Origin: Halobacterium jilantaiense
GTDB taxonomy: Archaea; Halobacteriota; Halobacteria; Halobacteriales; Halobacteriaceae
Assembly: GCF_900110535.1 (NCBI RefSeq)
Contig: NZ_FOJA01000001.1
Coordinates: forward strand, 496,001 to 560,000
Direction: 5' to 3'
Length of the DNA stretch: 64,000 nucleotides
Shown: one piece after another, positions 26,324-36,747 of the stretch
How positions within the stretch are numbered: position 1 is the first letter of the stretch
How the letters are laid out: every line of letters begins with the position of its first letter
Program-made: the position numbers and the translations under genes
Notes under the pieces: model-generated
Database searches by the model: none
Seen by the model: only the letters and a program-made list of their open reading frames with translations
What the model was told of the DNA's origin: nothing

Positions 26324-27253
26324 ATGCGACGCCGCGCCCTCCTCTCCGCGGTCGCGTCGGCCGCCGCGCTCGCTGCTGGCTGTACGTCGGCACCGACCGC
26401 AGACAACACCGCATCGACGACCGACGGACAGACCCATCTCAGGACCGTCCCCGAGCCGGGTCCCGACGCCGACCTCGCGATAACCGAACTGTCCGTCGAG
26501 ACGGAGAAGACCGCGCCGACCCACGAGTGGTACCTCCGCATCGAGGGCGTCTACAGCACCGACGCCGTCGGCCGGAACTTCGAGGACCCGACGGTCGTCG
26601 ACGTTTCCGACATCGAGGACGAAGCGGTGCGCGAGGCGGTCGAGCGCATCCTCGACGAGGGAAACGTGCGGGTCGACGAGATTCCGGACGGGCTCCGCGA
26701 GTTCGTGGACGCCACGGACCTCGTGACGTGGGCGGCCGACACCGAGGCCGACGACATCGCCACACACTGGACCCTCGGCGTCTACGACGCCCACCCCGAC
26801 CGCGACCCAGTGTTGGCGTTCGACGTCTCTGTGCTCGACGCCGGCATCGGGGAGGACCCCGCCGCGCTGGAGTTCGCCGTCGAGAACACCGGTGACACCG
26901 AACAATCCGTGTACGGCGGCGTGGTCCGACCGTTCGGCATCCCGCGCGTCCACCACCCCGGAGAGCCCGAAGGCGCGTCGTTCCTCCTCTGGCAGGACTA
27001 CGAGTCCATCGACGGCCTGAGCGTCACCGAGAACCGCATCACCAAGAACGCCATCGGGACGTCGACACCCGTCGCTCCCGGCGAGACGCTCACCCGCACC
27101 TACACGCTCGACCCGTCGAAGCCCCAGTGCGACGCCATCGGTCCCGGCGAGTGGGTCCACGAGGACGTTCTGGAGTACACTCAGAGCGGCGAGCCAGAGG
27201 GCCCGGGAGCGACAGTCGACTACCGACTCGAATTCACCATCGAGGACGTCTGA
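26324..27253 (+). CDS. Secreted lipoprotein of unknown function
   Basis: 309 residues. The N-terminus MRRRALLSAVASAAALAAGC has twin Arg, an Ala-rich core and lipobox Cys20, so export (probably Tat, as usual in haloarchaea) and lipid anchoring are likely. The rest (about 45-309) is acidic and beta-rich with no family I can name. A central FAVENTGDTEQSVYGG is reminiscent of an immunoglobulin-like sheet. It is followed by the 27285-27452 repeat element. Confidence 0.75.
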   Translation: MRRRALLSAVASAAALAAGCTSAPTADNTASTTDGQTHLRTVPEPGPDADLAITELSVETEKTAPTHEWYLRIEGVYSTDAVGRNFEDPTVVDVSDIEDEAVREAVERILDEGNVRVDEIPDGLREFVDATDLVTWAADTEADDIATHWTLGVYDAHPDRDPVLAFDVSVLDAGIGEDPAALEFAVENTGDTEQSVYGGVVRPFGIPRVHHPGEPEGASFLLWQDYESIDGLSVTENRITKNAIGTSTPVAPGETLTRTYTLDPSKPQCDAIGPGEWVHEDVLEYTQSGEPEGPGATVDYRLEFTIEDV

Positions 27254-27284: not shown

Positions 27285-27452
27285 GAGCATCCGGCGACCG
27301 AGTGGTCCGAAGGACCCGGTAGGTCGCCGGTTCTCTGCGCGAACGAGCAGAGCGAGTGAGCGCAGGCCGACGAGCGACCGCAGGGAGTGAGGAGTGCTTT
27401 TAGCGTAGCTTTTGCCAGGGAGCGAGCGAAGCGAGCGACCGCAGCAAAAGGT
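27285..27452. repeat. Dispersed haloarchaeal intergenic repeat, copy A
   Basis: This gap between the convergent lipoprotein and top6A genes shares a long block with 35605-35838. Bases 27354-27416 match 35735-35797 at 58 of 63 positions, including GCTTTTAGCGTAGCTTTTGCC. Both copies start with GCATCCG and a CGAAG.ACCCG segment and end GCAAAAGGT just after a minus-strand stop codon. The arms CTTTTGC (27409-27415) and GCAAAAG (27444-27450) can pair. On the minus strand it reads as a spurious open frame (GKSYAKST and on). Confidence 0.8.
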
Positions 27453-27466
27453 ACGAGTAGAAGGTA

Positions 27467-28563
27467 CTAGATGACGCCCATCTCGTCCAGCCGCTCCGGC
27501 AGGTAGGTGTCCGTGACGAAGTCGAGGCCGCGGGAGGCGAGCGCCTGCTGTTCGGCCTTCTTGTCGATGTCGAGCTGGAGCTCTATCTGTTCGGTCCAGA
27601 AGTCGCTCTGGAACCGAGGGTCTTCGAGTTCGGATTCGAGGGCGTTCACGTCGGAGTCGCTGAGCGGGTCCGTGGGCAGGTCGTAGTCGACGATGTCCTG
27701 CGGGCGGATGCCGACGAACTGCGCCTGCGGGGTGGCGAGGTACTCCGAGAGGTGCGCGGACTTGATAGAGCCGTAGGCGACGGAGCCGTAGATGCGGTAC
27801 GACCACGGGTCGCCGTCAGTGAACACGGTGACCGGGAGGTCGAGTTCGTCGTGGAGGCGCTTGGTGAGCCGGCGGGTGGCGCGGGCCGGCTGGCCGCCGA
27901 GGTGGACGACGATGGCGTTGTGCTCGTCGTCGAAGCCGTTCTCGACGAGGCGGTCCCGCATCCCGCCGGTCTCGACGCACATCACGAAGTCCGCGTCGTT
28001 CTCGAGGAACTCGATGGTGTCTGGGTTGTTCGGAATCTGGTAACCGCCCTGCCCGACGTCGTCCTGGCAGTGAATCTCGCGGTCGCCGCGGTTGGTCTGC
28101 TCGCGCAGCAGCAGCGGCCCCATGACCTTCGCGCCGGACTCCTCGGGGCGCATGTGGAAGTCCTCGCGCTTGACGCCGGAGACGATTTCGAGGTCCTCGA
28201 TGAGCTTGTCGCTCTCGCTCTGGTCGTTGAACTGGGCCTCCTCCTCGTCCCAGGACTCCGAGAGGTAGTACAGTTCACGCAGCGTCGACGACCGGTTCTC
28301 TTCGAGCTGCTGGGCGAGGAAGTCGACGGTGAATACGGACTTCAGCAGCTTCCGAGCGCCCCGGACGGAGTTCGCCGAGCGCGTCGACGTGCGGTCGCCG
28401 TACACCCAGACGTCCGCGTCGTCGTCGTACTCGATGTTGGACTTCGAGCGCGTCGGCAGCGTCATCCGAGGGATGTCGCCGTCCTCGAACTGTTCGTAGA
28501 ACTCTTCGGCCAGCGCGACCAGGCGGTCGCGGGCGTCCTCTCCTTTCGGGGTGTCTGTCTCGC

Positions 28564-28567
<4 letters not shown>
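27467..28567 (-). CDS. top6A: DNA topoisomerase VI subunit A
   Basis: 366-residue Spo11-type DNA-cleaving subunit of the type IIB topoisomerase that relaxes and decatenates DNA. The catalytic Tyr is in [12 protein letters not shown], most likely Tyr101 (second of the pair, by analogy with the Spo11 RDIFY motif). The Toprim acidic site is in [14 protein letters not shown]. The ATG at 28567 overlaps the top6B stop (TCAT on the plus strand, 28564-28567), so B and A are coupled, B first. Length is normal. Confidence 0.97.
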
Positions 28568-33088
<4,521 letters not shown>

Positions 33089-33089
33089 C

Positions 33090-35579
33090 ATGAGTTCGGA
33101 ATCACCTGACGTACCCGACGACGTGGCGGACCGAGTGAAGAACGTGCGCGTGGACGAGGAGATGGAGCAGTCGTACATCGACTACGCGATGAGCGTCATC
33201 GCGGGTCGCGCGCTCCCGGACGTCCGGGACGGCCTCAAGCCGGTCCACCGGCGCATCCTCTACGCGATGCACGAGTCCGGCGTGACCAGCGGGTCGAGCC
33301 ACCGGAAGTCCTCGAACATCGTCGGGGACACGATGGGGGACTACCACCCGCACGGCGACTCCCCCATCTACGACGCGCTGGTCCGGATGGCCCAGGACTT
33401 CTCGATGCGGTACCCGCTGGTGGACGGCCAGGGGAACTTCGGCAGTGTCGACGGCGACCCGGCCGCGGCGATGCGGTACACGGAGGCCCGGATGGCCCCC
33501 ATCGCGGAGGAACTGCTGACGGACATCGAGAAGGACACGGTCGACTTCCAGGCGAACTACGACGACCGCCTGACCGAGCCGACCGTCCTCCCGTCTGCGT
33601 TCCCGAACCTCCTCGTGAACGGCTCGTCCGGCATCGCGGTCGGGATGTCGACGAACGTCCCGCCGCACAACCTCGGGGAAGTCATCGACGCCACCATCCA
33701 CCTCATCGACAACCCGGATTGTACGGTCGTCGACCTGATGGACCACGTGAAGGGGCCCGACTTCCCGACGGCAGCGAATATCGTCGGCCGCTCGGACGTC
33801 AAGGAGGCCTACCAGACGGGCCGCGGTCGCGTCCGGATGCGCGCCGAGTACCACGTCGAGAGCGACGGCAAGAAGGACTCCATCGTCATCACGGAGCTGC
33901 CGTACCAGCAGAACAAGTCGAAGCTCGTCGAGCGCATCGCCGAGGACGTCAAGGACGGCAAGCTCGAGGGCATCACGGACCTCCGAGACGAGTCCGACCG
34001 GAACGGCGTCCGCGTCGTCATCGACCTCAAACGGAAGGCGAACACGGACGTCGTGGAGAACCGCCTGCTGGAGAGCCACCTCGAGAAGACGTTCAGCGTC
34101 ATCAACCTCGCGCTCGTCGACGGCGAGCCGAAGGTACTCACGCTGAAGGAGATGCTCGCGGAGTACGTCAGCCACCGCAAGGAGGTCGTGCGCCGCCGCA
34201 GCGAACACGACCTGGCGGAGGCCGAGGACCGCGCGCACATCCTCGAAGGCCGCCTGAAGGCGCTGGAGAACGCCGACGACGTCGTCGAACTCATCCAGAA
34301 CGCCGAGGACCGCGACGACGCGAAGGAGGTCCTCAAGTCGGAGTTCGGCTTCTCGCAGGACCAGGCCGACCACATCGTCCGGATGCAACTCGGCAGCCTC
34401 ACGTCGATGGAAGCCGCGGAGATCGAGTCCGAGTACGAGGACGTCTCGGCGCGCATCGAGCGCCTCGAAGAGATTCTCGGCAGCGAGCAGGAGCTGCTGG
34501 ACGTAATCAAGGACGAACTGCAGGAGATCAAGGCGCAGTACGCCGACGAGCGCCGCACTTCCTTCATCGAGGACACGGGGACCGTCGACGACGAGGACCT
34601 CATCCCCGAGGAGGACGTGGTGGTCGTGCTCACCGAGGGCGACTACATCAAGCGCGTGCCGGCCGAGACGTTCGACGCCCAGCACCGCGGCGGCAAGGGC
34701 ATCATCGGCTCCGACCTGAAAGACGGCGACCGGGTGTCGACGGTGTTCACCGCGAGCACGCACGACTACCTCCTGTGTTTCACGAACCAGGGCCAGGTCT
34801 ACCGGCTGAAGGTCTACCAGGTGCCGGAGATGTCCCGGACTGCACGGGGCACGTCCGCGGTGAACCTCATCGACCTCGACGACGACGAGGAGCTGTCGGC
34901 GGTCGTCACCGACGACGACCTCGACTTCGAGGCCGACGACGAGTACCTCACAATGGCGACCCGCGACGGCTACGTGAAGCGGACGAGCGTGGGCGAGTTC
35001 GGGAACATCCTCTCGACGGGCATCATCGCCATCGACCTCGAGGACGGCGACGAACTCGCCGACGTAGAAGTCACGGACGGCAGCCACGACGTCATCCTCG
35101 GCAGCGAGGCGGGGATGGCGATTCGATTCGACGAGAACGACGTCCGGCCGATGGGCCGCAACGCCCGTGGTGTCCGCGGCATGGACCTCGAAGGCGACGA
35201 CCGGGTCGCCGGCGTTGCTGACGTCGAGCCCGAGGACGACCGCAGCCTGCTGACCGTCACCGAGTTCGGCTACGGGAAACGGACGCGGCTCTCGGAGTAC
35301 CGCGCCCAGTCCCGGAACGGGAAGGGGCTGGTGGACATCAAGACCGGCGACCGGAACGGCGACGTGGTCTCCATCGACACGGTCGCCGACGACGACAACC
35401 TCGTCGTGATGAGCGAGGACGGCCAGATCATCCGGATGCCCGTCGACGAAATCTCGACGGTCGGCCGGAACACGAAAGGCGTCAAAATCATGGCAGTCGA
35501 CGAGGGCGACGAAGTCGCCGGCGTCTCGGTCTACAACCCCACGGAGACGGACGACGAAGACGCGGACGACGACGAGTAA
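33090..35579 (+). CDS. gyrA: DNA gyrase subunit A
   Basis: 829-residue breakage-reunion subunit. The winged-helix/tower domain holds catalytic Tyr130 in [11 protein letters not shown]. The quinolone-region positions corresponding to E. coli Ser83 and Asp87 are Ser91 and Asp95 in [11 protein letters not shown] coiled-coil domain spans about 350-470, and a C-terminal beta-pinwheel (about 510-815) has repeated YxKR-type blades. The GyrA-box-like motif QHRGGKG is present, consistent with true gyrase supercoiling activity. It ends in an acidic tail. Downstream is repeat copy B. Confidence 0.98.
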
Positions 35580-35604: not shown

Positions 35605-35838
35605 TAGCATCCGCGAGCGAGCGGTTCGAAGAACCCGAGCGACGCGGTTCGCTGCGCGAGTGAGCGGTGCGAGGCGTGAGCGTAGCGAACGCCTCGGTTT
35701 GTGCGAACGGCGAGCATCGCGAGCCGTGAGCCACGAGTGAGCGCAGGCCGACGAGCGACCAGCGGGAGCGAGAAGTGCTTTTAGCGTAGCTTTTGCCGAG
35801 TGGGGCGCGCTTCGCGCGCCCCACGCAGGGCAAAAGGT
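35605..35838. repeat. Dispersed haloarchaeal intergenic repeat, copy B, with perfect hairpin
   Basis: Second copy of the element at 27285-27452, again between convergent genes and ending just after the stop codon of a minus-strand gene (arginase). It is longer because of a middle stretch of short GCGAG/GAACG-type units (35645-35735). Outer arms CTTTTGCC (35790-35797) and GGCAAAAG (35829-35836) enclose a perfect inner inverted repeat (arms 35800-35810 and 35814-35824, loop TTC). It could terminate transcription in both directions. Confidence 0.8.
35790..35836. terminator. Candidate bidirectional hairpin terminator between gyrA and arginase
   Basis: Nested inverted repeats: an 8-bp outer stem CTTTTGCC/GGCAAAAG and an 11-bp GC-rich inner stem GTGGGGCGCGC/GCGCGCCCCAC with a 3-nt loop. 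The structure is the same on either strand. Archaeal terminators are usually T-tracts rather than hairpins, so a terminator role is inference; an mRNA-stabilising 3' structure is also possible. Confidence 0.5.
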
Positions 35839-35841
35839 CCC

Positions 35842-36747
35842 TCAGAGGATGCGTTTGCCGAGCGCGCTGGCGGCGAGTTCGGCGGCGATGTCGGCGGTGC
35901 GGTTGGATTCGTCGAGGATGGGGTTGACTTCGACGAGGTCCATGCTGCGGAGGATGTCGTCGGCGCGGTCGCGTTCGGCGACGGTTTCGAGGGCGGCGTG
36001 GGCTTCGCGGTAGGTCGCGCCGCCGCGGACCGGGGTGCCGACACCGGGAGCTTCGTCGGGGTCGAGCCAGTCCACGTCGAAGGAGACGTGGATGCCGTCG
36101 ACGCCGTCGGTGGCGGTGTCGAGGGCGTCGTCGACGACGGCCGTGATGCCTCGTTCGTCGATGTCCCGCATGGTGTAGGCGGTCATGTCGCTGTCGCGGA
36201 TGGCGTCGCGTTCGCTCTCGTCGAGCGTGCGGAGGCCGACGTAGACGATGTTCTCCTCGCGGAGGCCGCGGGCGTTCGCCCACTCCTCGGCGGCGAAGCG
36301 GCCTTCGCCGAGCGCGGCGGCCAGCGGCATGCCGTGGACGTTCCCGCTGGGCGAGGTCTCGGGCGTGTTGTAGTCGCCGTGAGCGTCGAACCAGATGGTG
36401 CCGACGTCGGCGTCGCGGGCGGTGCCGGCGAGCGAGCCGATGGCGACGGCGTGGTCGCCACCGAGCACGAGCGGGGTGTGGCCGGAGTCGATGGCGTCCG
36501 CGACTTCGTCGGCGAGCCGGGTGCAGAGGTCCTCGATTTCGGGGAGGAACTTCGCGGATTCGTCGCCGGGGTCGCGTTCCTCGGCGCGAGGGACGAGCAG
36601 GTCGCCGGCGTCGACGGCGTCGACGTCGGCGGCAGCGAGTTCGTCGGCGAGGTCCGCGTAGCGGATGGCCGACGGTCCCATGTCGACGCCGCGTCGGTCC
36701 GCACCGTAGTCCATCGGCGCTCCGATGACGTGGACAGTTCGAGACAC
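35842..36747 (-). CDS. rocF: Arginase (ureohydrolase family)
   Basis: 301 residues from a GTG start at 36747 (MSRTVHVIGAPMDYGADRRG). Arginase motifs are all present: GGDHAVAIGS, FDAHGDYNTPETSPSGNVHGM with Mn ligands and the substrate-binding Asn/Ser pair, and SFDVDWLDPDEAPGVGTP. The SGN-type substrate loop favours arginase over agmatinase. It hydrolyses L-arginine to ornithine and urea. It has its own TATA box and no amino-acid-metabolism neighbours. Confidence 0.92.
   Translation of the reverse strand: MSRTVHVIGAPMDYGADRRGVDMGPSAIRYADLADELAAADVDAVDAGDLLVPRAEERDPGDESAKFLPEIEDLCTRLADEVADAIDSGHTPLVLGGDHAVAIGSLAGTARDADVGTIWFDAHGDYNTPETSPSGNVHGMPLAAALGEGRFAAEEWANARGLREENIVYVGLRTLDESERDAIRDSDMTAYTMRDIDERGITAVVDDALDTATDGVDGIHVSFDVDWLDPDEAPGVGTPVRGGATYREAHAALETVAERDRADDILRSMDLVEVNPILDESNRTADIAAELAASALGKRIL

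Follow-up and report, generated by a model that had tools for sequence, protein, structure and literature searches.

A structured non-coding repeat family at RNA 3' ends in Halobacteria, with signs of mobility

Two intergenic repeat copies, A and B, in a 64,000-nucleotide stretch of the Halobacterium jilantaiense genome (the window) belong, on balance of probability, to a single family of structured non-coding repeats that is mobile, occurs in Halobacteria and serves as a 3'-end structure. Compensatory changes in the first stem (the P stem) show that the structure of the element is under constraint. The element is present or absent at orthologous sites, and long direct repeats flank a minority of its copies. 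Judged from such sequence comparisons, insertion at RNA 3' ends and service there as a 3'-end structure is the most likely reading.

The two copies (repeat family D9) are identical at 58 of 63 bases between 27354-27416 and 35735-35797 of the window, which confirms the repeat pair reported in an earlier sequence-only reading. As described there, each copy begins at the 3' end of a minus-strand gene and fills a convergent gap. Copy A stands behind the stop codon of top6A (27467-27469, minus strand) and faces an uncharacterised plus-strand gene that ends at 27253; copy B stands behind the stop codon of arginase (35842-35844, minus strand) and faces gyrA, which ends at 35579. The arms CTTTTGC/GCAAAAG, noted as a possible pair, are indeed paired in the predicted folds of both copies. 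Copy A had been given the limits 27285-27452; its location stands, and its first stem begins at 27455, not 27452 (Table 1). Stem H1 of copy A is matched by model R1 at 27457-27389, with 75.9 bits and an E value of 2.4e-14 in a search of the window. In copy B, P is GGA and forms one G.A mismatch with P'. The 21-mer core has eight exact occurrences and nine with 1-3 mismatches in the genome (2.95 Mb), compared to none for the reversed control. Chance or composition as the source of the repeat was ruled out by this empty control together with the shuffles of P/P' pairing given below. The folding energy of the whole gap is unexceptional for both window copies (z of -0.9 and -2.1); single-copy energies were therefore left out as evidence, and the case for a structure is comparative.

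Table 1. Positions in the window of the two repeat copies, their parts and the adjoining genes
Feature	Position	Strand	Basis
Copy A, whole (first stem to GGATGC end)	about 27287..27455	-	boundaries by comparison with other copies
Copy A, stem H1	27404..27455	-	model R1 match and covariation
Copy A, P (CGUA), C.C mismatch, CUUUUGC, variable hairpin	P 27455-27452; CUUUUGC 27450-27444	-	
Copy A, GCAAAAG and P' (UACG)	GCAAAAG 27415-27409; P' 27407-27404	-	
Copy A, second A run (AAAAGC), adjoining P'	27396..27403	-	(nearly) invariant columns in alignment A1
Copy A, hairpin H2 region (ACTCCTC ... GTCGGCC)	27365..27395	-	kept across copies
Copy A, hairpin H3 region, variable	27334..27364	-	copy comparison
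Copy A, hairpin H4 (GAACCGG ... CCGGATGC)	27287..27333	-	predicted fold; arm types co-vary
Copy B, whole	35607..35841	-	model match 35843-35770, 70.0 bits, E 4.3e-13
Copy B, core GGCAAAAGCTACGCTAAAAGC	35777..35797	-	21-mer genome search
DNA topoisomerase VI subunit A (top6A)	27467..28573	-	NF003332, E 1.7e-205
Arginase	35842..36747	-	TIGR01229, E 7.7e-85, over cut-off; agmatinase models under cut-off
Uncharacterised gene convergent to top6A	26324..27253	+	ORF; no NCBIfam match
gyrA, convergent to the arginase gene	33090..35579	+	

On the sense strand of the gene that precedes it, the element starts 0-4 nt behind the stop codon with P (two free bases and an A), followed by C or CC, T4-5, GC and a variable GC-rich hairpin. 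On the 3' side of this hairpin stand GC, A4-5, one base, a C that is mismatched with the C after P, and then P', which consists of a T and two bases complementary to P; after a further 2-3 nt comes a second A4-5 with GC. The 3' part comprises ACTCCTC (or CGTC/GCCGTC), H2, GTCGGCC, H3, and H4 between GAA and ATGC, so that the whole unit measures about 170-240 nt. By eye, H2 shows the 2-bp steps GC/GC, CU/AG and AC/GU. The T4-5 tract lies 5-10 nt behind the stop codon, and the opposite strand carries two T4-5 tracts. The ends are unlike, with NNACC on the left and GGATGC or a variable sequence on the right, and no inverted termini were noticed on inspection of the copies. Small perfect palindromes, such as GAAAGAGCG..CGCTCTTTC and CACGGGCGC..GCGCCCGTTC, are nested in elements at recurrent points (L042, L033, L027, L101, L138 and other loci) and look as if they were mobile themselves.

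Analysis of 124 unique copies, picked by a rule blind to P pairing, revealed that both free positions of P pair with P' in 107 of them, compared to 29.5 on average and at most 48 in 5000 shuffles. Seven paired combinations occur, namely GTA/TAC, CGCA/TGCG, CCCA/TGGG, CGA/TCG, GAA/TTC, GGA/TCC and CTA/TAG. Among the 17 unpaired copies, 11 have GG opposite AC, copy B included, and at least four (L150, L174, L205 and L208) resemble register shifts that were nevertheless counted as unpaired. In alignment A1, which holds the 63 of 71 regex matches with a short inner hairpin and was preselected for a 3-base match, 91.5% of the cells are paired, compared to 30.6-49.2% in slid controls. The arm types of H4 also match each other, in a set selected for at least three of four pairs. 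A conserved coding ORF was considered for the GKSYAKST-type translation singled out in the sequence-only reading; this translation is a minus-strand reading of the conserved core, and a coding role was rejected in view of the covarying stems and of hairpins that are entirely different from copy to copy.

Within clean stems, defined by three clean pairs on each side of the mismatch (flank 3), the sense strand has 13 G.U against 2 A.C mismatches (15 sites), with a split of 4:1 in H1 and 9:1 in the tail, compared to 15 against 38 in upstream coding DNA. The smaller first set of copies gave 9 against 1, and with two clean pairs (flank 2) the bias is weaker, at 27 against 14, compared to 55 against 71 in upstream coding DNA. 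Small as these numbers are, the G.U excess would favour folding of the element as a sense RNA.

A covariance model built from the first stem and the core found 22 copies in the H. jilantaiense genome, all on contig C1, whereas a total of only two had been named beforehand as an outcome that would speak against a widespread element. In the class, 174 of 292 genomes and 53 of 77 genera have at least one match at E <= 1e-4, in a survey that scored only 17 candidates per genome. Two congeners have 26 and 23 copies at the same threshold, and a third, G018 (2.4 Mb), has no element by model search; in the large genus g9 a match was seen in one genome only (G226). A phylum-wide sample of 120 genomes gave nine with a match, all in the order to which H. 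jilantaiense belongs. Carriers named by the DNA pattern are Halobacterium sp. CBA1126, Natrinema, Haloferax denitrificans, Haloprofundus, Haladaptatus, Halarchaeum, Halogranum and Haloferacaceae XH8. The exact core, with at most one mismatch, was found in 11 of the 292 class genomes, all of them members of the same taxonomic family as H. jilantaiense. The structure, with altered but still paired stems, is thus widespread and the exact core is not, and the earlier suggestion of a widespread haloarchaeal element holds for the structure only. No Rfam family matched the element: searches of 12 loci at E <= 1 and of nine loci at gathering found only adjoining tRNA and SRP RNA. The exact patterns had no match in IMG/VR viruses, and six weak matches in plasmids were all to haloarchaeal ones.

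In H. jilantaiense, 18 of the 22 copies immediately follow a stop codon or a tRNA, 13 of them as tabulated automatically and 5 by junction reading, which bears out the placement at gene 3' ends; three others are antisense to a gene with a duplicated end, and one is ambiguous. Among the 127 copies across all loci, a count that may include a few duplicates, 75 have a coding-like stop codon no more than 60 nt upstream. In 61 of the 75 the element begins 1-6 nt after that stop codon. The 52 rows outside this distance histogram are RNA genes, short flanks and antisense copies. The same 1-6 nt separate the element from tRNAs (L029 by Rfam; L229 and others by reading), from SRP RNA (L030, L047, L064), and from an RNA-like gene ending in ACA plus 3 nt (L203, L214), which is H/ACA-like by reading and has no Rfam match. 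The neighbouring gene downstream is often, not always, convergent: at the DnaJ, GcvH and S-adenosylmethionine synthetase sites it is co-directional, and the convergent gap proposed from the window copies is not a rule. One copy (L216) stands at the 5' end of a gene, the single case of a position upstream of a start, which the earlier reading had set down as contrary to its proposal.

An RNA-like gene ending in GTTCCGGGCGTACA plus 3 nt was observed upstream of the element at L203, L207, L214, L217 and L224. It is conserved across families, looks H/ACA-like by eye and has no Rfam match at gathering; at L214 a tandem repeat comprises its end together with the element.

Comparison of the orthologous flanks of eight H. 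jilantaiense genes in up to 12 relatives each, with model matches taken in gene sense and by locus, revealed patchy occupancy. The element is present in relatives behind top6A (1/12), PCNA (1/7), arginase (3/10), DnaJ (9/10), alanine dehydrogenase (7/11), GcvH (3/9), S-adenosylmethionine synthetase (7/11) and the L027 gene (6/10), counts that omit relatives already known by the core (four more for PCNA). Remnants without some of the parts were recognised by eye, for example at L108, L130 and L133, and a single site can have different P types in different species. The H. jilantaiense sequence aligns cleanly with that of G018 at DnaJ and at S-adenosylmethionine synthetase, save for about 200 and 390 extra bases directly behind the stop codon, respectively, the longer insert also containing a second module with TGCGTAGGTTCAAGTA; at PCNA the alignment is too poor to judge.

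Direct repeats of 24-71 bp that enclose the end of the neighbouring gene flank about ten copies; the flank comparison found none at most copies, A and B included. They are perfect over 64 bp in Natrinema mahii (L225/L234) and over 47 bp in Haloferax denitrificans (L221/L233), and reach 66 bp with one mismatch in another genome of the latter genus (L245) and 71 bp with five mismatches in Haloferacaceae XH8 (L230). Further repeats measure 64 bp, imperfect (L035), 34 bp with one mismatch (L034), 36 bp (L216), 30 bp (L214), 26 bp (L203) and 24 bp (L031, the same as L014). The screen dropped copies sharing their core with another, L230 included, and L230 and L245 were measured separately. Random flank pairings set a 99% limit at a score of 16; a single random pairing at 135 presumably joins two loci of one site. 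Between the left repeat and the element's ACC lie 0-9 nt. At L225 and L245, by reading, the right end meets an antisense gene at its stop codon and provides a new one. At L214 another element comes after the right repeat, and tandem duplication is therefore also possible there. The site of the Haloferax copy is empty in the close relatives L252, L253 and L258, with a short scar in L246.

Altogether, the patchy sites, direct-repeat flanks and empty sites argue for a non-coding mobile element and not only a terminator, and the flanks and empty sites go part of the way towards the non-autonomous mobile unit suggested earlier. A target-site duplication of fixed short length, as in MITEs, was not seen, the repeats being variable, and they could stem from recombination or template switching and not from one transposition chemistry. 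Profile searches of the H. jilantaiense genome for an autonomous partner found none, with no match to the Y1 transposase PF01797 and a single match to the TnpB-like PF07282, which lies on contig C2.

Just 3' of many elements lies a second conserved module of about 130-150 nt, TGCGTAGGTTCAAGTA...GGGACCA.CCC...GTGACCTGAC...CCGCCTG. Its best four matches in H. jilantaiense (C1:110350, 1163917, 1886021 and 2729171; L293-L296) are all behind elements, and it occurs in many relatives (L039, L043, L069, L119-L126, L148-L159). The module looks like a putative promoter with a short structured RNA and has no Rfam match; at L155 it contains an internal tandem duplication of about 40 bp (GTTCAAGTAGGTGGCCGGGACCAACCCGTCGCGTGAC).

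We propose that the element spreads without a protein of its own, by an enzyme or repair route that would be able to duplicate 24-71 bp of target. Once in place, it would form the first part of the transcribed 3' UTR or trailer, fold as sense RNA and define the RNA 3' end. The T4-5 tract behind the stop codon and the two on the other strand are putative terminators in both directions, and such bidirectional action would explain why the element suits mRNAs, tRNAs, SRP RNA and convergent neighbours alike. The position and the sense-strand wobble bias lend partial support to the 3' processing or termination that had been suggested and may reflect it. It speaks against this reading that, in sense, the T tract forms the 5' arm of the stem, whereas the T tail of a classical intrinsic terminator lies behind the stem. 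According to the available part of a study of Haloferax volcanii, the T stretch is an intergenic terminator motif, and T5C stopped 95% of transcripts (PMC7237163).

It is possible, though rather unlikely, that the element is selfish DNA only, of the hairpin-ended PATE or IS200/IS605 kind and copied by an HUH or another transposase. Copies would then be stop-adjacent because insertions elsewhere were lost, and P/P' would represent target/guide pairing in a single-strand transposition complex. Patchy sites and direct repeats agree with this, as does a P at the junction that pairs with an internal strand; the near-terminal palindromes, the apparent lack of terminal inverted repeats and the mostly missing target duplications are also as in PATEs, judging from the accessible part of their description (PMC3119063). 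However, purging alone would scatter the stop distances, which are observed at 1-6 nt, and sites are kept across the genus, as at DnaJ. Moreover, the P stem is formed around the hairpin and not with a guide on its 5' side, and PF01797 is missing from the H. jilantaiense genome. The long variable repeats fit neither IS200/IS605 nor the usual DDE transposition.

We regard as quite improbable a 3'-end or terminator domain that is immobile and inherited vertically, and whose patchiness would result from loss and gene conversion between copies. Most congeners have the element at the DnaJ, alanine dehydrogenase and S-adenosylmethionine synthetase sites, and P types differ at shared sites as compensatory change or conversion would give; but such inheritance does not account for copies flanked by perfect repeats (47 and 64 bp) of the end of a neighbouring gene, with empty sites in close relatives, for copies antisense to a duplicated gene, or for the copy at a gene start. 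An effect on translation, in which a hairpin at most 15 nt from the stop codon would slow termination or recycling, has very little likelihood; the part of PMC12306157 available cites such a proposal for REPs of E. coli that lie near stop codons. An effect of this kind would suit the 1-6 nt distance from stop codons, yet the same element stands at the same distance behind untranslated tRNA, SRP RNA and H/ACA-like RNA. Since what these ends share with stop codons is the RNA 3' end, 3'-end formation is favoured over translation.

To our knowledge, 3'-end formation in haloarchaea is poorly understood. In more than half of the sampled genomes of the class, a covarying RNA domain is seen here at the ends of stable RNAs and of the core genes for PCNA, DnaJ, topoisomerase VI and S-adenosylmethionine synthetase, but it is nameless in the families and papers found. 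If it both moves and makes 3' ends, it would be an archaeal mobile element that supplies terminators. The long direct repeats point to a transposition route that matches no family known to us. G018, which lacks the element, offers a natural comparison for 3' ends and for the missing mobilising gene. A bolder and unlikely extension is a new class of mobile 3'-end domain, in which the P/P' junction stem would help in selecting or fitting the place of insertion at the 3' ends of RNAs, and which would insert with long variable target duplications, for instance by RNA-primed copying, and take over 3'-end formation of mRNAs, tRNAs and SRP RNA across Halobacteria.

Among known systems, REP/BIME sequences are likewise short palindromic repeats interspersed at gene 3' ends, and some REPs lie near enough to supply or touch the stop codon, according to the parts of PMC3733652 and PMC12306157 available. 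They differ in size and signature, since REP/BIME units are 20-40 bp with a GTAG or CGTC tag, whereas the element is a multi-hairpin unit of 170-240 nt whose core has no such tag at the palindrome foot. The covarying P/P' stem, the long direct repeats at some copies and a genome devoid of Y1 transposase also set it apart. Archaeal T-stretch terminators have T4-5 just behind the gene, as far as the available part of PMC7237163 describes them, but in the element the T tract (T4 and then GC) lies inside a covarying stem of a multi-copy repeat.

Two elements of Haloquadratum were also compared, through the accessible part of PMC3119063. PATEs are likewise haloarchaeal and non-coding, with palindromes near their ends, and have no terminal inverted repeats, of which none were noticed in the element either; they are IS605-derived, make no target duplication and have ends in common with IS605-type transposons. 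The element, in contrast, has 24-71 bp repeats in about ten copies and none at most, and no transposon with its ends was seen in the H. jilantaiense genome. SMRs (about 110 bp) are small and transposase-less and have a strong target preference, as the element does, but possess terminal inverted repeats and target the palindromes of other mobile elements, whereas the element targets RNA 3' ends. The element is undescribed in the literature searched, which most subscription papers lay beyond, including the available parts of PMC7237163, PMC12306157, PMC3733652, PMC2864571, PMC3119063 and PMC4500146. No named family was found for it, and in kind it resembles the non-coding interspersed palindromic mobile elements at gene 3' ends.
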